From a virus: a stretch of DNA of 64,000 nt. Location: positions 186,001-250,000 of the IMG/VR virus record IMGVR_UViG_3300022935_000005; one strand, 5' to 3'. Every line of letters begins with the position of its first letter. Positions within the stretch are counted from its first letter, which is position 1. The notes beneath the pieces are model-generated. The model did no database searches. It saw nothing but the letters and a program-made list of their open reading frames with translations, and had not been told where the DNA came from. The translations under genes and the position numbers were made by a program. Below, piece after piece: positions 2,784 to 55,439 of the stretch.

Positions 2784-3467
2784 ATGCGCTTTAGAAGAAG
2801 TAACAGGCTAAAATCTTTACCTTTGAAGAGGTACGGGTTGAATGAGCAAGAAGCCGTCGAGCTCGAACAACAGGAGCTATCAGAACAGCAGGCACTTGCT
2901 CTTCTTATGAGCGAAGAAAAGTCTCCAACTACGGGAGTCGATGCAGATGAGAATCATGTATATTTTTACTCTCCCGTGACAGAAAAGTCTTCTCTGGAGC
3001 TGATTAGATTGATTAGACGGCTAGATATAGAGATGAGTTATCTCGCATCCCGGATCGGCTTACCAAAAAACCCGCCGATACACTTATATATTCAAAGTCC
3101 TGGAGGCGACGTCTTTTCCGGTCTTAACATATGCGATGCGATCGATAGATGCAAGACCGATGTATACACCTACATAGAGGGATCTGCCGCCTCAGCGGCC
3201 ACTCTAATTTCCTCTATGGGCAAAAAGAGATTCATGGCCAAGAGGTCATTTATGCTTGTACATCAACCACAGATCTTGTGGCATGGCAAGCATGATGAGT
3301 TTATAGACGAAATTGAGAACCAGAAGCACATCTTTCGAGCAGTCAAAGACATATATCTACAAAAGTGCACTATAGACGAAGAAGAGCTCGAAGAGTTATT
3401 GAAGCATGAACTTTGGCTGCCTGCCGAGAAGTGCTTAGAGCTTGGTTTGGTGGACAAAATCATTTAG
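2784..3467 (+). CDS. clpP: ClpP-family serine protease
   Basis: A 227-residue ClpP-type peptidase. QSPGGDV at 104-110 forms the oxyanion region, GSAASAATL carries the catalytic Ser137, and MLVHQPQ the catalytic His160. The usual acidic residue of the RD(R)F motif aligns with Glu209 (KHELWLPAEKC), so the triad is Ser-His-Glu rather than Ser-His-Asp. An extra ~55 residues precede the peptidase domain, Glu/Gln rich. A good AAGGAGG site lies before the ATG. Phage ClpP-like enzymes can serve in head maturation or replace host ClpP; no ClpA/X partner is seen here. Confidence 0.88.
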   Translation: MRFRRSNRLKSLPLKRYGLNEQEAVELEQQELSEQQALALLMSEEKSPTTGVDADENHVYFYSPVTEKSSLELIRLIRRLDIEMSYLASRIGLPKNPPIHLYIQSPGGDVFSGLNICDAIDRCKTDVYTYIEGSAASAATLISSMGKKRFMAKRSFMLVHQPQILWHGKHDEFIDEIENQKHIFRAVKDIYLQKCTIDEEELEELLKHELWLPAEKCLELGLVDKII

Positions 3468-4040: not shown

Positions 4041-4182
4041 GAATATTTCTGTGCTATTCCATATTTAATAGGGGAAAAGGTTTAATAATTTGGCTTCTAC
4101 TATACTAAGATCTTATCATGGTTTATACGACACAAGAAGCCCAAAAGAGAACAGCTTACAAAACTTAAGTGAGGAAGAACAT

Positions 4183-5265
4183 ATGTCAAGTAACAACAAA
4201 GATGATCAATACATTAACACACCTCAGGCGGATGACGATTTTGATTTCGTCATGGCATACGATGATGATCCTGCGGAGGGAGATGAAAGGCTCTTGCCTG
4301 AAAACTCTGCACGTTCCGCTATAAGCTGTGGTTTCATCGGAGTCGGGGGCGGAGGTGGAAAGCTTGCTAGCGCCTTTCTTGATGTAGGATTCAATAAGAC
4401 TCTACTAGTTAATACAACAGAGAAAGACCAGCCTGGCGGACTTGATGCAAACCACTTCCTATTAGTACCAGGCGCTGATGGTGTAGGTAAAGATGTCGAG
4501 TTGGGTAAGCAGGTTCTCGGTGAGAATTCAGCCATGGTTGAAGACGCTGTACGAACGCGTATTGGTCAGGTGGATTGGCTTTTCGTACTCGCTGGCGGCG
4601 GCGGAGGTACGGGTTCAGCTTGTCACGAGCTTCATTCTTCTCTATCACGTTATCTCGGGTCGGTAGAAGCTTCTGGCAATGTCGTCTATATAATTTCAAA
4701 GCCGACAGCTCAAGAGCTACTAAATCCAGCTATTAAGAAGAATTACTCTACCCTCATGTCGGATGTTGCCGATCACCCGCATATTGTGATCGACAATGAA
4801 AAACAGCTCCAGCTTCTGCGAGGCAAAGTTGGTATGCTTAATATGTTCCCTGCTGCTAATAAGAACTTTGCTAAGCTCTTTAGTCAAGTTCTCAAGCTTG
4901 CTGACGAGCACACCGAGATCCAGACTTTCGATAGTAAAGACCTAGAGCGTTGTCTAAAAGCTCCTGGTCGAATTGTTATTGGCTCTACGATCATCAAGGA
5001 TGTTAATAGAAATGACCTTGGGTCACTCGTCTATCAAGGATGCTTGCGTTCATCACCTTGCCCGACACCATCTGGTACTGCTACAACGGGTACACTACTT
5101 TTGATCGTCGACGGAAACATGGCTGCAGATCCTGATGTTAGTAGACGACTCGAATCAGCGTTCTCATATGTCGGTGGTAGAGCGGACGTCTTATTCTCGG
5201 GAGTTTATATGAAGGAAGGAATCCCTGGTTTAATTGGTCTAACGATGTTAGGTGGTTTGAAGTAA
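4183..5265 (+). CDS. tubulin/FtsZ-like GTPase
   Basis: A 360-residue protein of the tubulin/FtsZ fold. GFIGVGGGGGKLASAF at residues 50-65 matches the T1 nucleotide loop, and AGGGGGTGSA at 137-146 is the tubulin signature (GGGTGSG) that binds GTP phosphates. An acidic, low-complexity N-terminal extension of ~45 residues precedes it. I chose the ATG with GAGGAAG six bases upstream; the frame is also open back to a TTG at 4090. Phage homologues (PhuZ, TubZ) form filaments that centre or segregate DNA. The following gene is convergent and overlaps by 18 bases. Confidence 0.85.
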   Translation: MSSNNKDDQYINTPQADDDFDFVMAYDDDPAEGDERLLPENSARSAISCGFIGVGGGGGKLASAFLDVGFNKTLLVNTTEKDQPGGLDANHFLLVPGADGVGKDVELGKQVLGENSAMVEDAVRTRIGQVDWLFVLAGGGGGTGSACHELHSSLSRYLGSVEASGNVVYIISKPTAQELLNPAIKKNYSTLMSDVADHPHIVIDNEKQLQLLRGKVGMLNMFPAANKNFAKLFSQVLKLADEHTEIQTFDSKDLERCLKAPGRIVIGSTIIKDVNRNDLGSLVYQGCLRSSPCPTPSGTATTGTLLLIVDGNMAADPDVSRRLESAFSYVGGRADVLFSGVYMKEGIPGLIGLTMLGGLK

Positions 5266-5838
5266 TAGAACTTCTCTAACAAGCTTTCGAAGCCCTGATA
5301 TTTCTTTACTTTCTGTAAGAGATGTCAGGGCTTCCCAATGTTTGGGGCTTATACCCTTCGGTATTCCACCGGCCACGTCCGATATTTGGTCTATCGCATT
5401 TGCGTATTTCTGCTTCTGGCGAGGTGTGGGAGTAGAGCTTAGATTGTGTACCATGTCAGCAAGCTTTACTCTTAGAGCAAGCTGGTTGTTCAATAGCCCA
5501 ACCACATACTCGCTGTAAGGCGCGCCCTTCTCGTGCGTTAACGCTTTCACTGCGTCTATCACAACCTGACCAGCTTGTGGGTCTCGGATCGAACCTCTTA
5601 TAAATTGTTCCATCTCTTCGACACTATCAACAGTCAACCCTGGTGCGTCTTCGATACTATCATGCAAGAGTGCGACCATCTGTGCAGCGTGATCTCTAGG
5701 GTAGAATTTTCTTATTATGTTACGAACTTCTGACGGGTGAGTGAAATAATCTTCGCCTGACCTACGTTTTTGTCCTGTATGTGCCATTCGTGCAGTCGCA
5801 TATACATCTCTGAAGTCATCTCTAGTAAATTGCATCAA
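5248..5838 (-). CDS. HD-domain hydrolase, SpoT/MESH1-like
   Basis: A 196-residue HD-superfamily phosphohydrolase. The motifs of the SpoT/MESH1 group are in order: H20...RSGEDYFTHP (His34), LLHDSIEDAPG (HD at 59-60, ED at 63-64) and KLADMVHN near residue 125. Members hydrolyse (p)ppGpp or related nucleotides; there is no synthetase domain. The extreme C-terminus, LRKLVREVLLLQ, resembles the amphipathic tag found at the N-termini of many proteins in this window. Its start overlaps the end of the next upstream minus-strand gene by four bases. Confidence 0.8.
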   Translation of the reverse strand: MMQFTRDDFRDVYATARMAHTGQKRRSGEDYFTHPSEVRNIIRKFYPRDHAAQMVALLHDSIEDAPGLTVDSVEEMEQFIRGSIRDPQAGQVVIDAVKALTHEKGAPYSEYVVGLLNNQLALRVKLADMVHNLSSTPTPRQKQKYANAIDQISDVAGGIPKGISPKHWEALTSLTESKEISGLRKLVREVLLLQTT

Positions 5839-10073: not shown

Positions 10074-10856
10074 ATGAGACCATTTAAACAAGTCACGATA
10101 TCAGAGGGCGTTTTTGTTAGGGAGTTTTCTGGCGATGTAGACTCAGAAGAGCTCGTCTGGCACCGTGATCAAGAAGACAGACTTATTACGGTGACCGAGT
10201 CTGCTGGCTGGAAGATTCAGCGTGATAATGAGATGCCCGTGGAGATGAAGTCTGGAGATCAATTCTTTATTCCTGCCCTCGAGTGGCACAGGGTCATCAA
10301 GGGCACCGGAAGTTTGTTGATTGAAGTCGACACCAAGGCCGCGCATCCAAGACAGTACGGGGCATCTCAGGGCTCGAAGCGTGATAAACAGCTTGACCAG
10401 ACCAAGAAGGATCTAGAGAAAGCAAAGCAACTTCGTAAGGACGGAAAATCAAAGCAAGCTGATGAGCTTGAGAAAAGAGCATATGCCCGCCGGGACCGCA
10501 TGGAAAAGCAACAAAGAGAAAAGAAAGGGTTCGAAAACACTCCTCGTTCCGATACCAAGAAAGAGTCAATCGATAACGACGATGCAGTTTTAAGAGCTTT
10601 TGTGGAAGAGCTTCTTCTTTCTGAGAAGAAGACGAAAATGTCTAAGAAGACAGAAAAGGCTTTGGAGAAAAAAGCGAAAGAAAAGGGATACACTCTTGGA
10701 TCTGTCAAACAGGAATACAGGAAGGGTCTCGGCGCTTATTATAGCAGCGGGTCTCGAAAAGGAATGACTGCACATCAGTGGGCCATGGCAAGAGTCAATT
10801 CAGCGACTCCCTCTAAGTCTTGGGCTGTTGTTAAGAAATCGAAGGCAAAGAAATGA
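10074..10856 (+). CDS. cupin-like domain, internal tag, DUF5824-like C-terminus
   Basis: A 260-residue three-part protein. Residues ~20-90 form a cupin-like beta-barrel (VWHRDQEDRLITV ... GDQFFIPALEWHRVIKG) seen in marine myophages. Residues ~100-165 are highly charged and probably coiled coil. Then DDAVLRAFVEELLLSEKK is a tag-like helix with L-S-E, and the C-terminus (KQEYRKGLGAYYSSGSR, AHQWAMARVNS) is a small domain found as a module in phage head or tail proteins. The order suggests a polyprotein cut at the internal tag. Confidence 0.6.
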   Translation: MRPFKQVTISEGVFVREFSGDVDSEELVWHRDQEDRLITVTESAGWKIQRDNEMPVEMKSGDQFFIPALEWHRVIKGTGSLLIEVDTKAAHPRQYGASQGSKRDKQLDQTKKDLEKAKQLRKDGKSKQADELEKRAYARRDRMEKQQREKKGFENTPRSDTKKESIDNDDAVLRAFVEELLLSEKKTKMSKKTEKALEKKAKEKGYTLGSVKQEYRKGLGAYYSSGSRKGMTAHQWAMARVNSATPSKSWAVVKKSKAKK

Positions 10857-11221
10857 AAGTTACAAAAACACATTTGAAGCAGCTGATTGAAACAGCGGTT
10901 TTAAAGGAACAAGTTAGGGGATTGCTCATAGAGCGGATGTCTGTGGCAACAGTTAGTGACATCACAAGATTTAGACCATCGATAGAAGAGTGGGCTGAAG
11001 TTCTTGTGGATGAACTACAGAAAAAAGCTGAGAGGATGAAGGGGCTTGATGATAAAAGGCGGAATAGCATTATTACTATGCTGGTTGATGCAGTCGCCAA
11101 GTCTTTGATCAGCTCGACAGGTTCGATGACGGTCTCTAGTCTTGAGCGACAGAAAAAAGACAAAGAAGAAGAACAATACAAAAAGATGAGAGACTCAAGG
11201 CGTTACGGATATAGCGGATAA
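10853..11221 (+). CDS. small tagged protein
   Basis: A 122-residue helical, charged protein beginning MKVTKTHLKQLIETAVLKEQ, a variant of the MKITKxQLRRIIKEE tag that dominates 52-56 kb. L-K-E at the tag end fits the (L/I)-x-E pattern. The remainder is helical with a Lys/Glu-rich end. It overlaps the previous gene by four bases. Confidence 0.65.
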   Translation: MKVTKTHLKQLIETAVLKEQVRGLLIERMSVATVSDITRFRPSIEEWAEVLVDELQKKAERMKGLDDKRRNSIITMLVDAVAKSLISSTGSMTVSSLERQKKDKEEEQYKKMRDSRRYGYSG

Positions 11222-11227
11222 AAGACA

Positions 11228-11497
11228 ATGAGAATCACAAGACGACAACTTAGAGACATTATCCGTGAAGCTCTCGAGCTTGATGAAGACGTCCGCAAGC
11301 GCGGAGACGAGTGGTGTGCTTATGTCGATGACAAGCTGACCAAGGCAGAGAAAGAAAACAACCCCAAGAAATATAAGGGTAAGAAGGTCGGAAGTGTCCA
11401 GCGAACCAAGTCAGGCAAAATCAGGATGAAGGCTCGTGCTTGCTACAAATCAAAGAAAAAGGCCAACAATGCAATGGCCGCAGCAATGATGGGATAA
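11228..11497 (+). CDS. small tagged basic protein
   Basis: An 89-residue protein with the tag MRITRRQLRDIIREALEL. The remainder is basic (PKKYKGKKVGSVQRTKSGK, CYKSKKKANNA) with two Cys residues, consistent with nucleic-acid binding. Function unknown; the operon position between tagged genes suggests a packaged protein. Confidence 0.65.
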   Translation: MRITRRQLRDIIREALELDEDVRKRGDEWCAYVDDKLTKAEKENNPKKYKGKKVGSVQRTKSGKIRMKARACYKSKKKANNAMAAAMMG

Positions 11498-11500
11498 CAA

Positions 11501-11845
11501 ATGTCTACTAGCCCGGAGCTTTACACATATCGAGCGTTCGTTAGGAAAGTGTACGATGGGGATACGGTCACAGTTGACGTCGATCTCGGGTGGTCAGTTG
11601 TGCTCAAAGCTCAAAAGATCCGCCTCGTCCGCATTAATGCTCCAGAAGTTCGTGGAGAACAGCGCACGGAAGGTCTAAAATCTAGAGACGCTTTACGAGA
11701 CAAAATCGGAAACAAGTGGGTAAAGATCAAAACTGAAAAGGATAAGAAGGGTAAATTCGGCCGATGGCTCGGAGAGATCTGGCTTGAAGACGAGTGCGTC
11801 AATGATTGGCTTCTCAAGGAAGGTCATGCTGAGGAGTATAAATGA
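11501..11845 (+). CDS. thermonuclease-like nuclease (SNase fold)
   Basis: A 114-residue staphylococcal-nuclease domain. KVYDGDTVTVDVDLG carries the calcium-binding Asp residues, IRLVRINAPEVRG the first catalytic Arg, RTEGLKSRDAL the catalytic Glu region, and KKGKFGRWLGEIW the second catalytic Arg. Short SNase proteins are common in marine phages. No signal peptide or tag, so it probably acts in the cytoplasm. Overlaps the next gene by four bases. Confidence 0.85.
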   Translation: MSTSPELYTYRAFVRKVYDGDTVTVDVDLGWSVVLKAQKIRLVRINAPEVRGEQRTEGLKSRDALRDKIGNKWVKIKTEKDKKGKFGRWLGEIWLEDECVNDWLLKEGHAEEYK

Positions 11846-13137
11846 GTCTACTGCTAGAATACAGTAAGTACAATCCTGTGATAAGGGATAGAAGCTATAT
11901 CACTGAAGTTTTAGGGATTAAAGTCCCTCTGTACGAGTCGTATGAGTACTATACTCCAGAGCTACAGTCAAGGATTATTCGAGAGCACTTGCTTCTTGAG
12001 GGCTTCTTTGACGGTTTAAAGAGACTGAAGGATGACGCTCTATTATTCGGTAAATCTCTTAAGCAGATAATCACTAAACCTGACCTCATTGGATCGTTTG
12101 TGGCGGCCCTCAATAAGATGGTACTTAACAAGATGATTAGACCGATAGGGTCTTTTCTTAAGATGGTCAAGGAGAAGCTTACTGAGTTGGGGGCGGACAA
12201 GTTTCCGACGTTCATAAAGTTTGCAGACGGCTTGCTTACAAGCCTCAATAAGATCTTAGAAAAAGTGAATGGTCTAGATGGGTGGAAGAAAGCTGTGGGA
12301 GCGATGAGCTTAGCATTATCCATGAAATACATCTGGAACGAGATCGGTGAGCTGATCGAAGAAGGTCAAAAGAAGATTGGAGAAGTGGTACCAGCTTTTG
12401 ACATAATCAAAGCAGCAGCGGAAGGAGCTGCTGAGGCCGCAGGCGATAAACTGGAGAAAGCCAAGGAGGCTGTAAAGGGTCTTTTGAGCTGGCTGAAAGA
12501 GCAGATAGTAGAGAAAGCCGGTGAATTTATAAAAGAGAAGCTTAAGGGTCTAGCTACGTCTGTTTTAGGGTCTGCGATATCAGGTGGTGTTAAAAAAGTC
12601 TGGGACACCCTTACAGCTCTTTACGGAGGAGCGAAATTTGTTATGGATACGTTAAATCCAGCGTTCAAGCGTTTTACACACAAAGTGACTGCCGAAAGTA
12701 CACTTCGTGAATACGTAAGAGAGCTTTTATCTGAGCAAGCCAGTTACGGGTCAGCAGACGGCCAGTCTCGGATTGTCAAAGTCAATAACATGAAGATTCG
12801 TATAGACTTAGAAGATCTAGACTACAGAGCCACTCAGCACTCTAGAGAGCGTCAGCACCGACATAAGGATTCTTCCGGCCGCGGATTCAAGATATCGGGT
12901 GATTCCATCCAGAGAGCTATTGACGCTGCAATTGGTAACATCATAAACGACTATGCCAATGGCGAACTCAGGAACAACGAGCGGTTCTTGATCGCCGCGA
13001 AAACAGGGAAAGGTGACCCGCTGAATATTGTTGGCGCTCTGAATATGCAGAAGGGTCCTGACGATTTTGCAGTTATTACAGTAATGAGAAAGCAGAATTT
13101 TATGTCTGATCTGCCGACGTACGAGGTGAGTCTATGA
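11842..13137 (+). CDS. multidomain helical protein with internal tag and nuclease-like C-terminus
   Basis: A 431-residue protein. Residues ~50-285 are long amphipathic and Ala-rich helices (possibly membrane-interacting or scaffold-like). Near residue 291 lies STLREYVRELLSEQ, an internal copy of the LLREYIRELLxE tag. After it, a ~130-residue domain has HSRERQHRH, a Ser/Thr-rich turn and AVITVMRKQN, which resembles the BECR (barnase/EndoU/colicin/RelE-like) ribonuclease pattern. A two-part protein matured at the internal tag is my inference; nuclease identity is tentative. Confidence 0.5.
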   Translation: MSLLLEYSKYNPVIRDRSYITEVLGIKVPLYESYEYYTPELQSRIIREHLLLEGFFDGLKRLKDDALLFGKSLKQIITKPDLIGSFVAALNKMVLNKMIRPIGSFLKMVKEKLTELGADKFPTFIKFADGLLTSLNKILEKVNGLDGWKKAVGAMSLALSMKYIWNEIGELIEEGQKKIGEVVPAFDIIKAAAEGAAEAAGDKLEKAKEAVKGLLSWLKEQIVEKAGEFIKEKLKGLATSVLGSAISGGVKKVWDTLTALYGGAKFVMDTLNPAFKRFTHKVTAESTLREYVRELLSEQASYGSADGQSRIVKVNNMKIRIDLEDLDYRATQHSRERQHRHKDSSGRGFKISGDSIQRAIDAAIGNIINDYANGELRNNERFLIAAKTGKGDPLNIVGALNMQKGPDDFAVITVMRKQNFMSDLPTYEVSL

Positions 13138-13442
13138 AGCTGTTATCATGGCTCAAACATCGATTAAGCCACAAACTAGAACATTTCTCCCTAGAAAATC
13201 TTAAACGTTTCCTGAAAGAAAACGGTCTCGCGTTTGTTGTTATATTTCTAGCGTGGGAGATTATCGAGGATGTACTTTTCCCGATCCTCTTTACCGTTTT
13301 AGGAACATACGTCCACCCTGTGTTTTACGCAGGTGTTCCAGCAGCTTGGCTCCTTTGTTTACACTGGCTAGCAGTACCACTGATGTGGGGTGCATGGGTA
13401 AAGATTAGAGGAAAAAGGAAAGACAATGAGCCTTCTTCGTGA
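13134..13442 (+). CDS. membrane protein
   Basis: A 102-residue protein with a charged amphipathic first ~30 residues followed by two strong transmembrane helices (around 32-57 and 64-90) and a basic C-terminus. It is coupled by four-base overlap to the previous gene and overlaps the next by 17 bases. Its place in the tagged-enzyme operon is notable; function unknown. Confidence 0.6.
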   Translation: MKLLSWLKHRLSHKLEHFSLENLKRFLKENGLAFVVIFLAWEIIEDVLFPILFTVLGTYVHPVFYAGVPAAWLLCLHWLAVPLMWGAWVKIRGKRKDNEPSS

Positions 13443-13950
13443 ATACATCAAAGAGATCCTAAATGAGGGTGTTGAGTTCCATGAGCTTGATTCGCCCTTA
13501 ACCTATAATAGATCACGTAACGTGAAGCGCTTGGCATATTGTGATACATCAGTCACCGAACCGCCAGAAGGTCATGACACATATTTCACGGAATATCAGA
13601 GGATGGAAAGATATGGAAAAACCGGCCGGCGTCTGAAGAAGCCACGAAAAGGTGAGCTAATCCCAGGAGTTTCGAATGTTTGTGTTATCGGCTTTCTTGA
13701 CTATCACCACTACGGTAAAACTGCAGAAGGAAAGGACATGTGGTACATTGACTACATGAAGACCCGGGGTGATTCAACAGGTCAAGGCGTTGCCAGTAAA
13801 CTCATAGATGAATTCTTTGAGAGGTACGTCGATCCAGACGGTGGGTACGTTCACTTCGGCAAGATGATGAGAAAAGAGATCGGGCATCTTAAAGACAAGA
13901 TGGCCGAGAAGTACCCTAATGCAGAAGTAATCGGGGCTGTGAATTATTGA
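13426..13950 (+). CDS. tagged GNAT-like acetyltransferase
   Basis: A 174-residue protein beginning with the tag MSLLREYIKEILNE. The segment WYIDYMKTRGDSTGQGVASK fits GNAT motif A (strand, then R/Q-x-x-G-x-G/A loop binding the acetyl-CoA pyrophosphate) followed by helix LIDEFFERY. Substrate is unknown. It starts a run of eight genes that all open with nearly the same peptide and each overlap the next by about four bases. Confidence 0.6.
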   Translation: MSLLREYIKEILNEGVEFHELDSPLTYNRSRNVKRLAYCDTSVTEPPEGHDTYFTEYQRMERYGKTGRRLKKPRKGELIPGVSNVCVIGFLDYHHYGKTAEGKDMWYIDYMKTRGDSTGQGVASKLIDEFFERYVDPDGGYVHFGKMMRKEIGHLKDKMAEKYPNAEVIGAVNY

Positions 13951-14528
13951 TGAGACTACTTCGCGAATACATAAGAGAGCTGCTGAAAGAATCTGTTGAT
14001 CCCAAGATCATGTCAATGATCGATCGTGCAGAAAAGGCTGGCTTCAAGGTCGTTGTTAGGAGTGGTTATACGGCTGTGTACGACCCTAATATCGATGTTT
14101 CAGACTGGTATGAGGGCTATATTGGTCCAGCAAACAGGGTAGCAGGTATATCTTGGAACCCAAGTCCGGGAGCACATGGGCAACCTTGTTCTGGCGCCAA
14201 GGAAGTATCAGTTTCCGGCGCCAAAGAATTCGGGATGGGTCCATTAGCTTATGACGTTGCGATCGAAGCTTCGGGTGGTCTAATGTCTGACAGGCTGGAG
14301 GTTTCGAAAGACGCAAGAAATGTGTGGAAACATTACATGAAGAAGCGACCTGACGTGATAATCCAACAACTTGACAACCTGAAAAACGAGCTCACCCCAG
14401 AAAGAGAAGACAACTGTGATCATCCAGATGGATTTTCGGTTAGCTCACCACTTACAAAAATGTACTCTAAGATTGGAACGCCAGTCATGGATGAGCTGCG
14501 ACGACGAGGGATGTTGGAAGAACAATGA
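13950..14528 (+). CDS. tagged protein, YDVAIE family, paralogue 1
   Basis: A 192-residue protein starting MRLLREYIRELLKE. It is one of three paralogues in this operon (also 15070 and 17508) that share SVDPKIMSM(I/V)DR, GPLAYDVAIEASGGL, a DVIIQQLD segment and a final GTPVMDELRRRGML. The family occurs widely in marine phages as I recall, without a firm function; an acyltransferase-like fold is possible. The first ~55 nucleotides are almost identical among the three, pointing to recent duplication. Confidence 0.65.
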   Translation: MRLLREYIRELLKESVDPKIMSMIDRAEKAGFKVVVRSGYTAVYDPNIDVSDWYEGYIGPANRVAGISWNPSPGAHGQPCSGAKEVSVSGAKEFGMGPLAYDVAIEASGGLMSDRLEVSKDARNVWKHYMKKRPDVIIQQLDNLKNELTPEREDNCDHPDGFSVSSPLTKMYSKIGTPVMDELRRRGMLEEQ

Positions 14529-15073
14529 GACTACTTCGTGAGTATATAAGGGAAATCTTGAGTGAGAACAAGCTGCGTGTCTTCGATTTTGATGACACAC
14601 TTGCTGTCACTGATTCCATGATTATACTTACTAAAGCGACGGGTGAGCAGATAAAGCAGACTCCTGGAGAGTGGGCCATATACATACCTGAACCCGGCGA
14701 TGAGTTCGATTACAGCGAGTTCGGCGGCGAGTTAATGAACCCTCGAGAAATCAAAGACTACATGAATATCCTCCGCCGCGTTTTGGGAGCAGGTACAGAC
14801 GGTCGCAAAGCTGTGATCTTAACTGCTCGTGCTGAAGTTGCTCGACAGGGCATCATTAACTTTTTACAAGACATTGGTCTCAACGTAAACGACATTGAGA
14901 TTGTAACGCTTGGTGAATCCGACCCACAATTTAAGGCGCGATGGATTGAAGACAAGATAAATAGCGGTTATGACGATGTGTATTTTGTCGATGACTCTGA
15001 TAAAAATATAGCGGCTGTGCAAGCGCTAGCTGTGAAATATCCCAATATAAAGTTGAGGACACAACTGGTATGA
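14525..15073 (+). CDS. tagged HAD-superfamily phosphatase
   Basis: A 182-residue HAD hydrolase fused directly to the tag MRLLREYIREILSE. The catalytic motif RVFDFDDTLAVTDS follows after only three residues, LTARAEV is motif II and FVDDSDKNI motif IV. The catalytic domain is a homologue of the tag-less protein at 8515-9258, so the tag is an addition to an otherwise complete enzyme. Likely a nucleotide or polynucleotide phosphatase. Confidence 0.78.
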   Translation: MRLLREYIREILSENKLRVFDFDDTLAVTDSMIILTKATGEQIKQTPGEWAIYIPEPGDEFDYSEFGGELMNPREIKDYMNILRRVLGAGTDGRKAVILTARAEVARQGIINFLQDIGLNVNDIEIVTLGESDPQFKARWIEDKINSGYDDVYFVDDSDKNIAAVQALAVKYPNIKLRTQLV

Positions 15074-15687
15074 AACTATTGCGCGAATACATAAGAGAGC
15101 TACTGAAAGAATCTGTTGACCCCAAGATCATGTCAATGATTGACAGAGCTGAAGCTGCAGGTTACAAAGTCAGACTGTTTGTGGTCCCAAAGCAGGGAGG
15201 ATCTGTCAGGTTGGTTGAACCCGGTGACAAACCTCTACGACTGGACGGCAAAAACGCAATAGGTTCGGTTGAATGGAGAAAACCAAAGTTCAGCGATCAT
15301 GGCAATTGCTCAGGCGGACAAAGCGTAGGTTGGTCTGAAGCTGATGGTGGATTCGGGCCGCTGTTATATGATGTTGCGATCGAAGCATCAGGCGGTTTAA
15401 TGCCCGATAGATTCGAAGTATCCGGTGAGGCAGAGGCAGTGTGGGATAGATACATGAACTCTCGTTCTGATGTTATTGTTCGCCAGCTGGATATCTTACC
15501 TGACTACGAAGAACCACAGATCACCCCCGACAATCCCAACGATGATTGCAGCCAAGTTCCAGCGCACGACATGCTGAAGGACAAGTGGCATACATCTTCC
15601 CTCAGCAAGATATACAGCAAGTCAGGTACTCCCGTTATTGATGAACTGATCAAGCGCGGCATGTTGATAGATAATAGGACAGTGTGA
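15070..15687 (+). CDS. tagged protein, YDVAIE family, paralogue 2
   Basis: A 205-residue relative of 13950-14528, with the same tag (MKLLREYIRELLKE), the shared VDPKIMSMIDRAEAAGYK, GPLLYDVAIEASGGL and C-terminal GTPVIDELIKRGML. The middle is more divergent, with acidic insert DNPNDDCSQ. Conservation of two Cys residues (GNCSGG and DDCSQ) across the three copies may mean a structural or metal site. Function unknown. Confidence 0.65.
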   Translation: MKLLREYIRELLKESVDPKIMSMIDRAEAAGYKVRLFVVPKQGGSVRLVEPGDKPLRLDGKNAIGSVEWRKPKFSDHGNCSGGQSVGWSEADGGFGPLLYDVAIEASGGLMPDRFEVSGEAEAVWDRYMNSRSDVIVRQLDILPDYEEPQITPDNPNDDCSQVPAHDMLKDKWHTSSLSKIYSKSGTPVIDELIKRGMLIDNRTV

Positions 15688-16049
15688 TGAATCTACTGCG
15701 CGAGTACGTAAGGGCTTTGCTTACTGAAAAGACTATCGCCATTGGCCAATGTTATCCCCATGCGATCAAGATGGCTCAACAGTCATCTGATGAAGAGTGG
15801 GATGATCTAGACAAGTTCAAGGTGGTCCACGGAAAAGTGACGAACAAATGGAATGATGAGTCATATGAGCATGCTTGGGTTGAAAAGGGTGACATGATAT
15901 TCGACTGGCAAACACACGTAACAAAGCCAGAAGGGATTCCAAAAGCTGTGTACTACGATAACTTCCAACCTGAAGCTTATGAAGAATACACTGCTGAAGA
16001 AGCTATAATCAATTGTACTAAGTCAGGGCAAGCGGGGCCTTGGAGATGA
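15687..16049 (+). CDS. tagged papain-like cysteine hydrolase candidate
   Basis: A 120-residue protein with tag MNLLREYVRALLTE. After it the pattern C22YPHA...VVHGKV...HAWVEKGDMIFDWQ suggests a Cys-His-Asp catalytic set as in small papain-like/transglutaminase folds (C, then HAWxE, then D). The domain begins only seven residues after the tag. Peptidase or deamidase activity is inferred from the motif spacing only. Confidence 0.5.
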   Translation: MNLLREYVRALLTEKTIAIGQCYPHAIKMAQQSSDEEWDDLDKFKVVHGKVTNKWNDESYEHAWVEKGDMIFDWQTHVTKPEGIPKAVYYDNFQPEAYEEYTAEEAIINCTKSGQAGPWR

Positions 16050-16552
16050 ACCTGCTTCGCGAATACATAAGAGAGTTACTGACCGAGGAATCTACTACTG
16101 TTTCTCTACACAGAGGGTCAACTGAAGATTACTTCAGAGTGAATTTCAGCGTGGACGGTAGAATGGTTGGTTATGCAGAGGTCAACTCAACTCGTAGGTA
16201 CTCGAACTGCCAAGAAAATGTTATGGAACTTGAACAATCTCCAGAGTACATTGAAGCCAAAGAACGGCACGAGGCGACAAGCAAGTGGAGCTGGTCACCA
16301 AAGATGTACGTTACGAATAACGTCTGGATCCCCAACGAAGCTGACAGAGGGAAAGGTTACGGTAAGTTGATATATCAGGCAGCCATTGACCAGGCAATTC
16401 AATACGCAAGGTCTAGCGGTGGTGTGTTTATCGGTTCGGACGCATGCGATTCTGCCGGTTCCACCTCAGCTGATGCGGGCCGTGTATGGAGTTCACTGGG
16501 ACAACAGTTCGGTGCTAGCTCAGGCCAACTGATATTCGTGAGGACAAACTAA
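16046..16552 (+). CDS. tagged GNAT acetyltransferase
   Basis: A 168-residue protein with tag MNLLREYIRELLTE. The segment VWIPNEADRGKGYGKLIYQA is a clear GNAT motif A (R-G-K-G-Y-G). A Cys/Ser-rich C-terminal part is unlike standard GNATs. A TTG six bases upstream is possible, but the ATG matches the tag consensus of the neighbours. Target unknown. Confidence 0.7.
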   Translation: MNLLREYIRELLTEESTTVSLHRGSTEDYFRVNFSVDGRMVGYAEVNSTRRYSNCQENVMELEQSPEYIEAKERHEATSKWSWSPKMYVTNNVWIPNEADRGKGYGKLIYQAAIDQAIQYARSSGGVFIGSDACDSAGSTSADAGRVWSSLGQQFGASSGQLIFVRTN

Positions 16553-17511
16553 TGAACCTACTCCGCGAGTACATAAGAGAGCTGCTGTTAAAAGAAGTCA
16601 AGTCCTCTGAACTTCCATGGGCAGAACTGTCTGATATTTTACGTAAAAAATTTCCTGGGTTTGGCGAAGAAGTAGAGATGCCGGCAGGAGGGAAACGTAA
16701 GCCTTTCGAGATAGAGCAGAGGACGGTGGCAGATAGGGGTCCCCAGAGATTGGCTAGCTTTACCATCGGATATGGTGACTTCTCCTACGATAAGCCTGCC
16801 ACTAAATTCTCTGACGCTGATTTAGACGCTGTCGTTGATGAGATCGATAAGTGGGCTGCTAATTTTGGATTACATGTGGCAAGAGACCAACTCGCCATGA
16901 ATAGCAATATCGCAATGCTCAAAGTCGGGCTGATGGATCTGGAGACAGACGAAGTCGAGAAACCAGCGAAACTATATCATGTAACAGATCCTGTGACAGC
17001 TGAGACGATTCTCTCGCAAGGTTTAGAACCTCAGTCAGCTAGACGGCGAGGCAAGGCTGGAAAAGCAGGTGATATGATGGGTGCAGCAGGGAGAAGTTAC
17101 CCTGGCAGAATATTCATGTTCACAGATGCACAGACTGCCCTCGCTAGAGCTTCGAAGACTGCAAAGATTATGCATAGGCTTTCCTTTGTTAGGGATGTCT
17201 TAGAAGACGAAGCAGAGTACGAGAAGGGCGCCTCTCAAACAATCGGTAAGTCAGAAACCCCAGTTGTTTTAGAGATTGACGGATCTGCTGTCGGTAAAGT
17301 AATGGCAGATCCAGATTTTGAGATGGGTAAGGGTGCCGTATTCTCAACAGATGCAGTTCCACCATCTGCGATATCGAAGTATAAAGATGTAGACAGGGGC
17401 AGCTTCGAATACGATTGGCGAGATAACTATAAAGTAAGAGAGATGCTCAGAAGTGATTATGGCGGCACAATGTCAAAAATCAAAGCATGGGAGCAGAGCC
17501 AAGGATTATGA
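16552..17511 (+). CDS. tagged ADP-ribosyltransferase-fold candidate
   Basis: A 319-residue protein with tag MNLLREYIRELLLKE. In the C-terminal half, KLYHVTDPVTAETILSQGL, then YPGRIFMFTDAQTALARA and PVVLEID resemble the H-Y strand, loop and third motif of ART-type or RNA 2'-phosphotransferase-like folds (Y/LYHVT... IL..GL.P). T4 Alt, an ADP-ribosyltransferase, is packaged and cleaved in the head, which makes this call attractive, but I cannot identify the catalytic Glu. The N-terminal ~140 residues are unknown. Confidence 0.5.
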   Translation: MNLLREYIRELLLKEVKSSELPWAELSDILRKKFPGFGEEVEMPAGGKRKPFEIEQRTVADRGPQRLASFTIGYGDFSYDKPATKFSDADLDAVVDEIDKWAANFGLHVARDQLAMNSNIAMLKVGLMDLETDEVEKPAKLYHVTDPVTAETILSQGLEPQSARRRGKAGKAGDMMGAAGRSYPGRIFMFTDAQTALARASKTAKIMHRLSFVRDVLEDEAEYEKGASQTIGKSETPVVLEIDGSAVGKVMADPDFEMGKGAVFSTDAVPPSAISKYKDVDRGSFEYDWRDNYKVREMLRSDYGGTMSKIKAWEQSQGL

Positions 17512-18059
17512 AACTACTACGCGAATACATAAGAGAGCTACTGAAAGAATCTGTTGATCCCAAGATCATGTCAATGGTTGATAGACTCGAAGCGGACGGG
17601 GGATATGTTAGAATTAGCAAGAACGCTGCAAGAGTTATTATTGATGGACACAATGTCGCGTTTGTCCAATTCGAAACACCGGGAGTTTGGTCCAAAGGTG
17701 AGTGTTCGGGCGCGAAAATAGTATCTTACTCTGAAGCGGAAAGAAGTTACGGTCCTTTAGCATATGATATCGCCATTGAAGCAACAGGCGGACTTGCACC
17801 AGATCGCGAAGAAGTTTCAGGAGATGCAAAAAACGTTTGGTCTTACTACGAAAAGAATAGACCTGATGTAACAATCGCCCAGCTAGATGATGAAAACAAT
17901 ATGTTGACCCCTGACGGTGGAGACAATTGCAATCAGAAGTCTGCCATGCTGGATGCAGAAAGTTACCACTTTGATAGATCACCGCTCAGTAAGGTATACA
18001 GGAAGTCAGGTACGCCCGTTATAGATGAGTTGCGGAAACGAGGGATGTTGAAGGAATGA
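17508..18059 (+). CDS. tagged protein, YDVAIE family, paralogue 3
   Basis: A 183-residue relative of 13950-14528 and 15070-15687: tag MKLLREYIRELLKE, then SVDPKIMSMVDRLEADGG, GPLAYDIAIEATGGL and GTPVIDELRKRGML. I place the start at the ATG overlapping the previous stop rather than at an upstream ATG, because the tag then begins exactly as in its paralogues. Function unknown. Confidence 0.65.
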   Translation: MKLLREYIRELLKESVDPKIMSMVDRLEADGGYVRISKNAARVIIDGHNVAFVQFETPGVWSKGECSGAKIVSYSEAERSYGPLAYDIAIEATGGLAPDREEVSGDAKNVWSYYEKNRPDVTIAQLDDENNMLTPDGGDNCNQKSAMLDAESYHFDRSPLSKVYRKSGTPVIDELRKRGMLKE

Positions 18060-18904
18060 ATCTACTTCGTGAATACATAAAAGAGGTATTAAGCGAGGTA
18101 ACAGCTCTTCCTCAGGAATACTTCACTGCAATCGATGCCGCTGTGTCTTCTTCAAATTTTTGGGAAGAGCCGAATTCTCAAGATGATATAGACTACTATG
18201 AGTCTAAGGCAGGAGGGGTCATGGCTACTCCTGCCGCAGAGGCTCTTTCTGAGGCTCTAGAAGGGGCTATGGAAGAGGTTGGTCTAGACATGGACATATT
18301 GGTTAGGTCACACGATACAGATGATCTGATGGGAATGTCTCTACATCCCGAGCATCCTGCTTGGCCTAATAGATGGCTCATCGACGCGAAGTGGTACGTC
18401 TCAAAAGAACGCCCGGGAAGAAGCACTATTGACATAGAGATGATGACATCAGAGGATGAAGACAACATTTCTCAAGCTCTGAACACCAGTGAGCTAGTCC
18501 GTCATATTACAGCAACAGTGAGACACGAGCTAGTACATTATCGACAGATGAAAAAACAGGCTGCCCATAAGGGGCTGGATGACACCGCCGCTTTTGAGGA
18601 AATGCTGAAAGATCCCCGCCAGATTCCGCCGGGCTCCGCGGATGATCCGGAGTGGCAGAAGAAGTACTTGAGTTCTCATATAGAGATCGATGCTCACGCT
18701 CACGATGCCGCCGAAGACTTGATCGCTGTATACTCCGCTAAAGAGATTGACGCAATACTCAGTAAAAAGGTTGATCTGTCTGATGATAGACTGCCCAACG
18801 CTGTTAAGCACTATATCGAGGTTCTTGGGCCCGACGATAAATCAACTCGTAAGTTCATGAGTAAGCTTTATACACAAGTCGAAAAGATGAAAAGTAGAAG
18901 ATAA
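18056..18904 (+). CDS. tagged zinc metallopeptidase
   Basis: A 282-residue protein with tag MNLLREYIKEVLSE. VRHELVHYRQMKK in the middle is an HExxH zinc site, and the downstream SHIEIDAHAHDAAEDL may give the third ligand. An acidic ~110-residue N-terminal part precedes the site. Likely a gluzincin-like peptidase; substrate unknown. It ends the tight run of tag-coupled genes. Confidence 0.65.
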   Translation: MNLLREYIKEVLSEVTALPQEYFTAIDAAVSSSNFWEEPNSQDDIDYYESKAGGVMATPAAEALSEALEGAMEEVGLDMDILVRSHDTDDLMGMSLHPEHPAWPNRWLIDAKWYVSKERPGRSTIDIEMMTSEDEDNISQALNTSELVRHITATVRHELVHYRQMKKQAAHKGLDDTAAFEEMLKDPRQIPPGSADDPEWQKKYLSSHIEIDAHAHDAAEDLIAVYSAKEIDAILSKKVDLSDDRLPNAVKHYIEVLGPDDKSTRKFMSKLYTQVEKMKSRR

Positions 18905-18933: not shown

Positions 18934-19572
18934 ATGGACGTTCTAAGACAGTTTATAAGACAAATAATTCTTGAGCAAATAGAGCAACCCGCTCCTGAAG
19001 CCTCTTTACCAAAGGGTGAATGGGTTTCTGTTGAGGCAGGAGACCCTATGAGATCTGTTATCGTTGACGACCTTTATGATATGCTGCAGTCGACATACGC
19101 TCCAATTGGTGGTCACTTTAAAGTCAAGAAGCCGTCCGACCTTGAAAGGTACAGGTTCTGGGTAGTTGCAGACATCGACGAAGATCCTGAACCTGACGTC
19201 GCTTTATTTGCGAAGCCTGATATCGGTGGTACGAAGATGGGCGCCGCCGCGAATGATGGTACAGCTGCAGCAGCTAACGCTTACAAAGACAAATCTTCTG
19301 AGTTGAGAGCTGGCGGCTCTATTGGCTCTGGCTCGAACTGGTGGGGTGAAGTTAGCGGCAAGCCCGCTTATGCGATGCTTAAGCGTGGTGCGCCAGCAGT
19401 CGAGGATGAAGCTGTAGTAATGCAGTTACTTGCTGGGGATGATATTATCTTTCACGGAGCTCATCCTGACCCGAATGCTCCAGCCCTTTTTAAGAGCGTG
19501 AACGGGTGGTATACCAAGAAGTTCGGAGCAAAGTCATCTACCAAGATTATTCTTGGGTCTCCGAGTTTGTAG
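18934..19572 (+). CDS. tagged protein, marine-phage GNAT-like family
   Basis: A 212-residue protein with divergent tag MDVLRQFIRQIILEQ. The rest (DDLYDMLQSTYAPIGGHFKV, DIDEDPEPDVALF, NGWYTKKFGA) follows a family I recognise from marine myophages, where it is annotated as hypothetical or N-acetyltransferase-like. Conserved Gly-rich and Asp-rich turns are present. A short intergenic gap and its own AAGGTAG site precede it. Confidence 0.6.
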   Translation: MDVLRQFIRQIILEQIEQPAPEASLPKGEWVSVEAGDPMRSVIVDDLYDMLQSTYAPIGGHFKVKKPSDLERYRFWVVADIDEDPEPDVALFAKPDIGGTKMGAAANDGTAAAANAYKDKSSELRAGGSIGSGSNWWGEVSGKPAYAMLKRGAPAVEDEAVVMQLLAGDDIIFHGAHPDPNAPALFKSVNGWYTKKFGAKSSTKIILGSPSL

Positions 19573-20412: not shown

Positions 20413-20483
20413 TACAGTTTAACCTGTAATCCTCCACCTGGTCCGCATATTTATTATTGTTGTTTGATCTTAAGGATTGTCTT

Positions 20484-21305
20484 GTGAACGAATCTACAAT
20501 AAGAACCTACGTACGTGAGTGTCTTCTAGAGTCCAAAGAGAAAGTACGCGGTTATGTGAAACCAGACTCTAGTTTCTTTACTCTTGACGAGTGGCAGCTG
20601 GCTGTTGAGATGCTCCTAGAACTCCAGAAAGAAGGTGTCGATACCAGAGGTGGACAGTATACAGACCCAAGACTCATAGCGATCGTAGAGAGATATTTCG
20701 GATACCAACTAAACGATGAGGTCGAGAGATGGGACCTTCTAACAAAGAAGAACGTCCTTGATTTTGTGGAGGACTTTGTCAATCACCGCTTTTGGGGGTT
20801 GAGGAAAGAGTTTGGTCACTACTTTAAGGACATAAATCGCTTGCGATTTGCGTATTTCTACTCTCGAGGAGATCTAGAGCCATATGTCCTGATGGATGAT
20901 GAGTTCACTACTCAATTGTACGGTTCCACCAACAACCCAAAAGAACTTCTCCACTACACAACAATCAGAGGTGTTGAGAGGATTCAAAAAGCCATTGATT
21001 CTGGTTCTGCGTTTGATATATCAACGTTTACAGTCGCAGAGAGACCGTTTTTTCGTCCCGATTCGAATATCATCATAAAGCTTTTGGGAAATGTTCGGGC
21101 TGGCTTCAGAAGCGACATAAAATCTATGGCTGTTGATACCGGCCGCCGTGCTTGTAATCTTTATCGTCTAGAGTACCCTGGCGAAGACTTCAATAACATC
21201 TGTTACGAGTTAGAAACCTGTGACGGTGAGCTAAGGACGTCTTTGTGGAATGAATATATTGCTACTCCAATCGAGATATTGGAAGTTTTGAAGGTGAAAG
21301 TATGA
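20484..21305 (+). CDS. tagged protein, possible ADP-ribosyltransferase fold
   Basis: A 273-residue protein. I place the start at GTG (with AAGGA upstream), giving an N-terminus MNESTIRTYVRECLLES like the tags of the preceding operon. In the C-terminal half ELLHYTTIRGVERI, FDISTFTVAERPFF and SLWNEYIATPIEI mirror an H-Y / S-T-F / E arrangement typical of ADP-ribosyltransferase folds in phages. NGRRACNLYRLEYPG-like conservation suggests a defined marine-phage family. Activity not proven. Confidence 0.5.
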   Translation: MNESTIRTYVRECLLESKEKVRGYVKPDSSFFTLDEWQLAVEMLLELQKEGVDTRGGQYTDPRLIAIVERYFGYQLNDEVERWDLLTKKNVLDFVEDFVNHRFWGLRKEFGHYFKDINRLRFAYFYSRGDLEPYVLMDDEFTTQLYGSTNNPKELLHYTTIRGVERIQKAIDSGSAFDISTFTVAERPFFRPDSNIIIKLLGNVRAGFRSDIKSMAVDTGRRACNLYRLEYPGEDFNNICYELETCDGELRTSLWNEYIATPIEILEVLKVKV

Positions 21306-22168
21306 ACGAATGTATGGTGCTATGCGGAAACACGCCCTTGGTTAAAATAGCTGATCATTTGTACGCAAAGCTAGAGACATACAACCCTTCTGGATCTGTC
21401 AAGGACAGGATGATAACCTACGTTGTGGGTTCTGCCTTGAAAAGAGGCGAGATTAATGACAAGACTGTGCTTTGCGATGCGACTAGTGGAAACACAGGCA
21501 TAGCTTTAAGCATGGTAGCTGCTTCTTTAGGCCTCCGCTGCGTGATATTTATGCCTCGTAACATGTCTGAAGAAAGAAAGCAGATGATGCGTGTTTACGG
21601 AGCTGAAATAATTGACGCTCCAGATGATGACTTCACTGGAGCGATAGAGATGCGCGATGAGTTTATAGCTCGTAATGATAATGTGTGGTCGCCGAAGCAA
21701 TTTAGTAATAAAGAGAACGTTCAATGTCATTTTACTACAACAGGACCAGAGATCTACAACGACGTATCATCTCGGGGCCTAAAGCTATCCGCCTTCATCC
21801 ACGGTTCAGGTACAGGCGGTACTATAGAGGGTGTCCGTAGGTTTCTAAAGGACTCCTCTGTAGATGCCAAGGTAATCATGGTCCAGCCTGAAGAGTCGCC
21901 TCATGGGATTCAAGGGATTGCTGATGGGAAAGAATTTCTAGCATTAGACAATGATATGGACGAGATCATAAAGGTTCGTACTGCTGATGCAATAGAGAGA
22001 GCGGAAAGATTAGCGAAAGAATCAGGACTTTTGGTCGGTATCAGTGCTGGTGCTAATATTGTTGCTAGCGAAGCCTGGATAGAAAAAAACAACCCAGAAG
22101 GTGTTGTTGTTACTATGCTCTGTGACCGAGGCGAACGCTATATGTCGATTTATGGAGAGCACGAGTGA
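21302..22168 (+). CDS. cysK: cysteine synthase (O-acetylserine sulfhydrylase)
   Basis: A 288-residue PLP enzyme. NPSGSVKDR carries the Lys that binds PLP, ATSGNTGIAL the Asn loop, HGSGTGGTIEGV the phosphate-binding loop and LLVGISAGANIVA the C-terminal Ser that contacts the PLP nitrogen. It makes cysteine from O-acetylserine (CysK) or a related acceptor (CysM). Slightly shorter than the usual ~310 residues, all core motifs kept. An auxiliary metabolic gene, coupled to its neighbours by four-base overlaps. Confidence 0.88.
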   Translation: MNECMVLCGNTPLVKIADHLYAKLETYNPSGSVKDRMITYVVGSALKRGEINDKTVLCDATSGNTGIALSMVAASLGLRCVIFMPRNMSEERKQMMRVYGAEIIDAPDDDFTGAIEMRDEFIARNDNVWSPKQFSNKENVQCHFTTTGPEIYNDVSSRGLKLSAFIHGSGTGGTIEGVRRFLKDSSVDAKVIMVQPEESPHGIQGIADGKEFLALDNDMDEIIKVRTADAIERAERLAKESGLLVGISAGANIVASEAWIEKNNPEGVVVTMLCDRGERYMSIYGEHE

Positions 22169-29396: not shown

Positions 29397-29431
29397 TTTT
29401 GTTAGCAAGAGCAGGAGCTATATAAGAATTG

Positions 29432-30097
29432 ATGCCCGAAGTACTAGATCAAGCGATATACCTTTTAGCAGCCGCCTCTCTCGGTTCTATGATCGGACTA
29501 GAGAGAGAAGTGCATGGCCAACCTGCTGGTCTTAGGACACACATGATCCTCTCCACTGGGGCTGCGCTAGCTGCAATACTATCCATATCATATTCTCAAT
29601 TTCTGTCAAATCCAGACTTGCCGTCTGACCCTGGTCGCATTGTAGCTCAAGTAGTCAGCGGAGTGGGTTTTCTCGGCGCCGGCGCGATTATGAAGATGGG
29701 CGTTACTGTTAAGGGGCTAACAACGGCTAGCTCACTTTGGACGACTGCTATCGTAGGTATTGCGTGCGGTAGCGGCTATTTAGAGCTTGGGGCTATAACG
29801 ACGGTCCTCGTGTTTGTGATCTTGACAATTATTAATAAGGTTGAGAAAGCCTTGTTGACGACGTACAAAACTCACACTCTTAAAATTACTCTAGATGATA
29901 GACCTGGGATCGTGAAAGACGTCAAGACTTGCCTCGAGGAAAATAACGTCAAGCTTGTGTCTTTAAGCGCTGGTATGCCTGATAGAGAGAGTCTAAATCT
30001 TTCCATGGTGATCAGGAAACCTGAAGATCTTGGCATGGACAGTCTAATAAATACTTTGAACGGGTTCGCCGAGACTCGGTCGATGGATTTAAAATGA
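29432..30097 (+). CDS. mgtC: MgtC/SapB-family membrane protein
   Basis: A 221-residue protein. GLEREVHGQPAGLRTHMIL and GVGFLGAGAIMKMG...GLTTASSLW are the two signatures of MgtC, within four to five membrane helices; the C-terminal ~80 residues form an ACT-like soluble domain (TLKITLDDRPGIVKDV). MgtC of pathogens inhibits the F1Fo ATP synthase and adapts cells to low magnesium. A phage copy is unexpected. Start ATG follows GCAGGAG; a TTG three bases earlier is possible. Confidence 0.85.
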   Translation: MPEVLDQAIYLLAAASLGSMIGLEREVHGQPAGLRTHMILSTGAALAAILSISYSQFLSNPDLPSDPGRIVAQVVSGVGFLGAGAIMKMGVTVKGLTTASSLWTTAIVGIACGSGYLELGAITTVLVFVILTIINKVEKALLTTYKTHTLKITLDDRPGIVKDVKTCLEENNVKLVSLSAGMPDRESLNLSMVIRKPEDLGMDSLINTLNGFAETRSMDLK

Positions 30098-52298: not shown

Positions 52299-52526
52299 AT
52301 GAAAATCACAAAGAACCAACTTAGAAGAATTATCCGGGAAGAGCGCGCTAAGCTTGCACGTGGCAGAGCTGTTAACGAACAGTACTCACCGGGTCCCGAG
52401 GAGCGCCGCGCACGGTCCGCGATCGACCAGATTGTCACAGACTTTCTAGAGAGCGATGAGGGTGATCCGGCGTTAATTGCAGAGATTCTGAGAGAGATTG
52501 CCAACGACGTCGACGAAGAAATGTAG
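52299..52526 (+). CDS. tagged small protein, MKITK class
   Basis: A 75-residue protein with the full tag MKITKNQLRRIIREERAKL. After the tag comes an acidic, helical domain (RRARSAIDQIVTDFLES) ending DVDEEM. I-R-E and E-R within the tag fit the (I/L)-x-E pattern. First of a ten-gene array. Confidence 0.65.
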   Translation: MKITKNQLRRIIREERAKLARGRAVNEQYSPGPEERRARSAIDQIVTDFLESDEGDPALIAEILREIANDVDEEM

Positions 52527-52541
52527 TGGTCTGGGGGCGGC

Positions 52542-53078
52542 ATGAGAATCACAAAGAGACAACTTAGAAGAATTATCCGAGAAGCGATTGATGTTGTTGA
52601 TAGAGACACTGGCGAAGTTATGCGCTTTTCTGATGATAGTAGCGACAGCATGGCAGATCTTCCTGAAAAAGCCTGGCCTGACCTGGTAAAGCGGCTTGGG
52701 TTGAGCCCTAAAGACGTGGGTCTTGATGCTGCCGGTAATCAAGGATTTGAGCTAGACCAGAATGAGTTTATACGCCTTGACAACGAGACTCGTGAAAAAG
52801 CCTACAACCGTAAGATGAAAAAACAGGCAGCTGCCTACAAGGCTGATCGGGAAAGATTGGATATCGACAATCTCCTCGAGAGACTCCGCTATTGGGCACA
52901 AGACGCAGCGTCTGATTACATGGCTGACAATCCAGACACCGACCTGCAGGATATCGCCTATGACCTTGCGGACGCTTGGCAATTCGCGTTCGAAGAAGAT
53001 GAACGAGAAGAACTGTTGTGGCACTTTGACGGTGACCTTAACGACCTTAAGATTTTCGCAGCGGAGAGTATGGGATGA
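52542..53078 (+). CDS. tagged protein, MKITK class
   Basis: A 178-residue protein, tag MRITKRQLRRIIREAIDV (I-R-E/A). Rest acidic, helical, with EEDEREELLWHFDGD. A motif of charged coiled coil is visible around 85-105. Function unknown. Confidence 0.65.
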   Translation: MRITKRQLRRIIREAIDVVDRDTGEVMRFSDDSSDSMADLPEKAWPDLVKRLGLSPKDVGLDAAGNQGFELDQNEFIRLDNETREKAYNRKMKKQAAAYKADRERLDIDNLLERLRYWAQDAASDYMADNPDTDLQDIAYDLADAWQFAFEEDEREELLWHFDGDLNDLKIFAAESMG

Positions 53079-53371: not shown

Positions 53372-53372
53372 C

Positions 53373-54805: not shown

Positions 54806-54806
54806 A

Positions 54807-55124: not shown

Positions 55125-55130
55125 GACAAG

Positions 55131-55424: not shown

Positions 55425-55439
55425 GACTAGGAGAACAAA

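Follow-up and report, generated by a model that had tools for sequence, protein, structure and literature searches.

The window analyzed here is a stretch of 64,000 nucleotides, bases 186001–250000 of the 280,913-base virus record IMGVR_UViG_3300022935_000005, which is a T4-like jumbo phage, a virus of bacteria. On its plus strand, positions 13426–18904 hold nine genes that overlap stop to start and encode a common N-terminus, M-x-LLREY[IV][RK]xxLxxE, which we call the leader or tag; the remainder of each protein is its cargo. The leader closes with L-x-E in all nine genes, and that of 16552 carries one extra residue before the E. Genes are named below by their start positions and cargo families by C numbers, C0 being the family of 13950, 15070, and 17508.

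13426–13950, + strand: tagged gene 1, leader MSLLREYIKEILNE and a GNAT-like domain (sub-threshold Pfam Acetyltransf_1)
13950–14528, + strand: tagged gene 2, leader MRLLREYIRELLKE and a C0 cargo (GNAT-like fold)
14525–15073, + strand: tagged gene 3, leader MRLLREYIREILSE and a HAD / polynucleotide-kinase-phosphatase-like domain (phrog_415, 8.9e-10)
15070–15687, + strand: tagged gene 4, leader MKLLREYIRELLKE and a C0 cargo
15687–16049, + strand: tagged gene 5, leader MNLLREYVRALLTE and a C1 cargo, a family of 12 instances in 11 records
16046–16552, + strand: tagged gene 6, leader MNLLREYIRELLTE and a GNAT-like domain (C5; sub-threshold Pfam Acetyltransf_1)
16552–17511, + strand: tagged gene 7, leader MNLLREYIRELLLKE and a cargo confined to this phage species among the contigs scanned
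17508–18059, + strand: tagged gene 8, leader MKLLREYIRELLKE and a C0 cargo (AlphaFold model, pLDDT 74.6)
18056–18904, + strand: tagged gene 9, leader MNLLREYIKEVLSE and a putative zinc metallopeptidase (HELVH, matching HExxH; sub-threshold Tox-MPTase3)

The original prediction described nine genes with near-identical 5′ ends of about 42 bases, joined by ATGA couplings. The shared 5′ ends were borne out, as the first 42 nucleotides are 60–95% identical between pairs (0.595–0.952), with a mean of 75% (0.748; 36 pairs). With one of the three C0 paralogues kept (seven genes), identity within the leader was 0.720, compared with 0.285 and 0.282 in the 42 nucleotides on its upstream and downstream sides, respectively, so the edges of the module are sharp and the values on both sides are at background. 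The ATGA coupling applies to five of the eight junctions, which are 4-nucleotide overlaps; the other three are 1-nucleotide overlaps (TGATG, TGATG, and TAATG). The three full paralogues were confirmed, 13950 and 15070 being 59% and 55% identical to 17508, respectively. The further claim that each gene encodes a different enzyme was correct in that several distinct families are present, and too broad in that three genes form one family and five look GNAT-like on the weak matches described below.

A tag-like motif was found at 24 of the 366 N-termini of proteins of at least 60 residues in the whole 280,913-base record. Shuffled sequences gave a mean of 0.9 (maximum 5), and of 230 random internal windows a single one held the motif. 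We detected no promoter or terminator signals above shuffles across the nine-gene run. A search of 50,697 phage records returned no DNA match to the locus, so no isolate in that collection carries it, and no protein match for 16552 or C0. The three nearest contigs belong to the same species (99.995–100% over 20 kb) and were therefore uninformative on cargo swaps.

The window proteins contain at most one domain each. Five of the nine cargos, those of 13426, the three C0 paralogues, and 16046, look GNAT-like, judging from sub-threshold sequence matches and a predicted structure. In the AlphaFold model of 17508, leader residues 1–16 have a pLDDT below 50 and lie apart from the domain. Nearly all of the 50 best-listed Foldseek matches to this model were acyl- or acetyltransferases, at E values of at least 0.008, and the best Z score in the structural comparison of C0 was 7.0, below 8. 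The structure of C1 (15687) gave no clear fold match. The cargo of 16552 is possibly ADP-ribosyltransferase (ART)-like, as judged by eye, and in the C4 family we read by eye what we take to be the R-S-E motif of ARTs. PDB sequence searches with the HAD domain, 16552, and the ART-like family C4 yielded nothing useful, and PADLOC gave no match for the seven window cargos scanned. A cargo related to that of 18056 sits behind the leader ALLREYVRGILLE in locus L158. Many cargos here have no family match, so the leader would offer a first functional handle on them if the capsid-targeting reading given below is right.

Leader statistics were taken over 118 instances in 21 records, after removal of one spurious tag instance (L142:1618). 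Index 9 is L or I in 111 leaders, index 11 is E in 98, and [LIM]xE is present in 113. Conservation ends at the E of L-x-E, and none of the next ten positions is conserved. The presence of a seam at L-x-E implies that leader and cargo are separable.

The surroundings of C0 showed how far this seam extends beyond one leader sequence. A scan with C0 from which the leader had been removed gave 77 loci; together with the window copies and leader-locus copies, the set comprised 97 sequences, which fell to 76 after removal of 21 copies (at least 95%) and to 75 after removal of one truncated sequence. The seam, [LIMVF]xE followed after the cut by [AGSVLE][AMVI], precedes C0 in 68 of the 75 (shuffled mean 14.3, maximum 24). 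Among the seven rows without a site, L144_8006, L154_8006, and L142_8006 do have LTE and fail the residue rule after the cut. Three leader dialects stand before C0, namely A (LLREYIRELLxE), B (LTEAKLKKLINEVLEE, RITEHRLRQLIRETLLVE), and W (LLTEWRKYLLSE, LLENWREYLNE). C0 also lies deep inside proteins of 300–1400 residues in some records, where the seam is still present. Across 43 records, the dialect of neighboring genes matches that of the C0 leader in 99 of 109 cases (shuffled mean 37.0, maximum 67 in 10,000), a count that leaves out eight loci of repeated records and loci carrying no A, B, or W leader. W leaders are absent from the neighbors of A loci, and A leaders from those of W loci. This agreement indicates that the leader follows the phage while the cargo crosses dialects.

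A scan with the leader pattern returned 27 loci, of which eight were left out as copies (L149, L151, L152, L155, L136–138, and L150); the remaining 19, with G000, G004, and G005, made up the cargo set of 21 records. Their 119 tagged segments fell into 44 cargo families, one spurious and 43 real, with 16 in more than one record and 28 in a single record. Cargo order behind the same leader differs among the 21 records, and the same cargo was seen with other leaders or leaderless in relatives. At the syntenic locus of the relative G004 (about 228.5–242.1 kb), 13426 is kept (65%) along with one C0 member (38%), the cargo labeled 15684 is fused to a tRNA nucleotidyltransferase (PolyA_pol, 9.2e-37), and the tag is the sole match for 16552 and 18056. 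Both G004 and the second relative, G005, encode fusion proteins with internal tags; in G005 the 13426 cargo (60%) lies behind such a tag. The tagged HAD protein 14525 matches an untagged HAD gene of G004, with the homology beginning at residue 16, directly after the tag. A DUF192 protein lacks the tag in the window (22165) and carries it in G005.

The three clear paralogues, the GNAT fold that five of the nine genes may share, and the tendency of tag and cargo to travel together might all be attributable to plain tandem duplication of one tagged ancestor. The cargos would then be members of a single family too diverged to be recognized, and the module edge would not have been a site of exchange. 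We regard this as improbable. The HAD, DUF192, tRNA nucleotidyltransferase, RNase_T, and kinase cargos belong to unrelated families, the HAD and DUF192 domains occur with and without the tag as described above, and C0 has three leader types that follow their neighbors.

Besides the tRNA nucleotidyltransferase, cargos in relatives include a HAD 'Swiss army knife' RNA repair domain, an exonuclease, and Zeta-toxin-like kinases, as well as a weak match to a tRNA-ligase phosphodiesterase. The RNA-repair-like enzymes, exonuclease, and Zeta-toxin-like kinases suggest a role in early counter-defence. Leader-associated proteins at L110:13496–15130 and L111:4398–6518 (G004) include a tRNA nucleotidyltransferase and a HAD domain for RNA repair, a hint that RNA-repair functions may be injected.

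At the nucleotide level, the tag DNA bears signs of one origin, because its Arg codons are biased and its codon sharing lies above expectation. The first leader Arg is CGN in 111 of 118 instances and the second is AGR in 95 of 104 Arg codons, although CGN and AGR are about equally frequent in the genome. Codon sharing among the window tags is 0.448, compared with 0.308 expected, a value reached in 5 of 5000 simulations. This codon sharing, together with the stop-to-start coupling of all nine genes, would also fit a shared 5′ end that acts as nucleic acid, either as a translation start enhancer or as a patch of recombination homology, with the peptide being incidental. Such a role appears highly improbable, since the tag also occurs in frame inside proteins, far from starts, and the peptide is kept across records while only 0.408–0.440 of same-residue codons agree. 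In addition, the other dialects retain the peptide logic with different DNA. The original prediction assigned no function to the module; the analysis points to a leader peptide that carries a protease site rather than to a module for DNA recombination as such.

The same record encodes a gp21-like S77 prohead protease (1.3e-26) within a T4-like head module composed of terminase, portal, protease, small genes, an acidic scaffold-like gene, and a gp23-type capsid protein. The leaders MAKMTRNDLKSLVKECLFE and MAKNLKLTPALLKKLVMEEKAKL, also of this type, open two small genes between the protease and the capsid protein; equivalents of these genes occur in G004, G005, and G006. The first of the two, adjoining the protease, has a related leader in four of four genomes and in 15 of 17 further S77 loci. 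S77 was found in 18 of the 32 tag-bearing records, including all nine that reach 170 kb or more. S77 proteases themselves (G000:106703, L248, L250, L245, and others) often begin with sequences such as KLLTEW, LLREF, or VLQEF, resembling W and A leaders; T4 gp21 starts with MNEPQLLIETW. A second protease gene of the phage, beside S77, lies at 2784–3467 (+) and matches phrog_94 (7.7e-40), a label that we take to denote the ClpP-like head maturation protease families.

Taken together, the shared 5′ module probably encodes an N-terminal capsid-targeting leader of the T4 type, and the cargo, once cut free by protease, would stay in the head and be injected. In this mechanism, whose docking, cleavage, packaging, and injection steps we infer, as we do the cargo activities, each gene would produce a leader of about 14 residues (MxLLREYIRELLxE) and an independent cargo domain. 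The leader may form a short amphipathic helix that docks the protein on the prohead core, and the gp21-like (S77) prohead protease would cut after L-x-E, leaving the bare enzyme in the head. The freed enzymes, among them GNAT-like acetyltransferases, a HAD phosphatase, and a putative metallopeptidase, would then be injected together with the DNA and work on the host immediately, like Alt and the internal proteins IPI–III of T4. Over evolution, cargo domains have probably gained the leader, lost it, adopted the dialect of another phage lineage, or fused into polyproteins with the tag between domains.

Amphipathic N-terminal helices are commonly membrane or partner signals, and the leader might accordingly be a localization or docking signal for the membrane, the tail, or a replication compartment, with L-x-E merely marking the end of the helix. 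We consider this destination unlikely. Leaders of the same type occur on conserved genes adjoining the prohead protease, conservation stops exactly at the E, and the [LIMVF]xE seam is kept with another leader or with the cargo deep in a long protein.

Building on capsid targeting, the dialects raise a broader proposal, for which we judge the chances to be about even. Marine T4-like jumbo phages would share a market of injected effectors, in which the prohead core of each lineage reads that lineage's own dialect and cargo domains move from lineage to lineage by joining the local leader at the L-x-E seam; loss of stop codons would yield polyproteins that the prohead protease cuts in the head into several effectors. 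If this market exists, the leader dialect alone would predict hundreds of injected proteins. If capsid targeting itself holds, the injected arsenal of a large group of uncultivated phages would be readable from sequence, with any protein that has an N-terminal dialect leader ending in L-x-E as a candidate, and the leaders would be candidate short packaging tags for phage protein delivery.

Several observations weigh against capsid targeting or against exchange at the seam. The [LIM]xE motif is absent in 5 of 118 instances, and about 15 of 118 lack an E at index 11–12 by the usual spacing. The A-type leader resembles that of T4 only loosely: a 10-residue fit by eye between MKTYQEFIAE, the N-terminus of T4 IPII and IPIII, and MxxLREYIRE agrees at E6, the aromatic residue 7, I8, and E10, and aligning peptides of 10 residues gives weak evidence. 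In 14 of the 32 tag-bearing records, all below 150 kb and possibly fragments, S77 was not found. The dialect classes and patterns were defined post hoc, with about 15 rows relabeled by hand. The C0 cargo tree is poorly supported and gives 24 class changes versus 37 when shuffled; if starred branches alone are counted, no more than one or two changes per class are forced. Finally, tags on the same cargo in different records have a DNA identity of 0.716, compared with 0.679 between tags on different cargos of one record and 0.662 when both cargo and record differ. These values indicate that tag and cargo usually move together and that exchange at the edge is occasional, so the case for recent swapping or homogenization at the edge is weak.

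The cassette of the original prediction, with a shared 5′ module and exchanged cargo, thus stands in part, as a shared module with exchangeable cargo (43 families in 21 records), qualified by tags that mostly travel with their cargo. Its proposed comparison of related phages for swaps at the module boundary revealed cargo turnover and a HAD homology that starts directly after the tag, with little sign of recent swapping at the edge. Gene content was not fully conserved among these relatives, the cargo differing across the 21 records and in G004 and G005. Concerted evolution of the tag DNA within a genome was also considered and was dropped, as homogenization is weak (0.679 versus 0.662).

Further leaders occur in the window outside the nine-gene run.

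10853–11497, + strand: two genes (10853 and 11228) with the B-type leaders MKVTKTHLKQLIETAVLKE and MRITRRQLRDIIREALELDE
12701–12736, + strand: internal in-frame tag copy (LREYVRELLSE) within the gene 11842–13137
18934–19572, + strand: tenth gene, with the divergent leader MDVLRQFIRQIILE; in G004 this cargo follows the leader MRLTESALRHLIRRTLLE, and in G005 it has an internal tag
20457–21305, + strand: gene with the divergent leader IRTYVRECLLE; the G004 homologue is leaderless, and homology begins directly after the leader
52299–55901, + strand: second run, made up of nine small genes that bear the related B-type leader MKITKxQLRRIIKEE
55926–56690, + strand: Zeta-toxin/AAA-kinase-like protein with the leader LRLIRQLIRESLLAE (Pfam, 2.6e-9)

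A cargo similar to that of 20457 sits behind MKLLREYIRELLNE in L144, and a leader-like N-terminus is also present at 61267. A cluster like the second run lies at about 12.0–14.0 kb of the same record.

Among the other genes of the window, a complete ATP-type phosphoenolpyruvate carboxykinase at 30551–32023 (+; Pfam PEPCK_ATP, 2.6e-162) is a striking metabolic gene for a phage. A cysteine-synthase-like PALP enzyme is encoded at 21302–22168 (+; 1.5e-57) and an MgtC family protein at 29429–30097 (+; 7.7e-39). The gene at 4090–5265 (+) encodes a Tubulin/FtsZ-like GTPase (Pfam, 7.4e-5, below the cut-off) whose counterparts near the same locus of G004 and G005 are 77% identical. On the opposite strand, 5248–5838 (−) encodes an HD_4 domain protein (4.1e-7), possibly an alarmone hydrolase.

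A full-text literature search with the leader sequence words gave no match, and the literature search did not find this leader, long coupled enzyme runs, internal leaders, or phage-specific dialects with a kept seam in print. Leader-like N-termini are present in Flavobacterium phage immuto, for which the literature search found no proteome paper.

The closest parallel is T4, whose internal proteins are docked in the prohead core by a leader of 10–19 residues, which gp21 removes by cutting after L/I-X-E; leader residues 4 and 7 matter for targeting (PMC9026906). The T-even internal proteins are a diverse anti-host set sharing only the leader (PMC3012670, PMC12373910), and Alt is a packed ADP-ribosyltransferase (PMC5512222). 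Like IPI, IPII, IPIII, and Alt, the genes described here combine a short common leader with unrelated mature parts, an (L/I)xE site, and a gp21-type S77 protease, and in both sets the cargo includes enzymes (Alt in T4) and is diverse and exchangeable in related phages (PMC9026906, PMC3012670, PMC12373910). Unlike T4, the present phages have another leader sequence in several dialects, with leaders also internal to long proteins. T4 has three internal proteins in two loci, whereas a run of nine coupled genes and a second run are present here. The cargo consists mainly of enzyme-like domains, and the phages are uncultivated.

Other packaged proteins share part of this arrangement. In P1, an N-terminal signal likewise directs the anti-host protein DarB into the head (PMC9024508), although a short L-x-E leader common to many genes is not reported for P1 in the available part of that paper. 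The tag-bearing fusions of the relatives resemble the polyvalent proteins of Iyer et al. 2017 (PMC5512222), which are multidomain, are predicted to be packed and injected, and include ART and peptidase domains; in contrast, most of the nine window proteins have a single domain, and the accessible text of PMC5512222 does not mention a shared cleavable leader between domains. In SPN3US and phiKZ-type phages, a Glu-specific prohead protease removes N-terminal propeptides from packed ejection proteins, as would occur here, and gp53 and gp54 have 15 N-terminal residues in common; unlike the leaders of this study, those propeptides are mostly longer than 100 residues and end in A-x-E or S-x-E motifs (PMC5694885). 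The principle of a capsid-targeting leader is thus known from T4, while the leader, the coupled runs, the internal leaders, and the dialects appear to be new relative to the literature searched.

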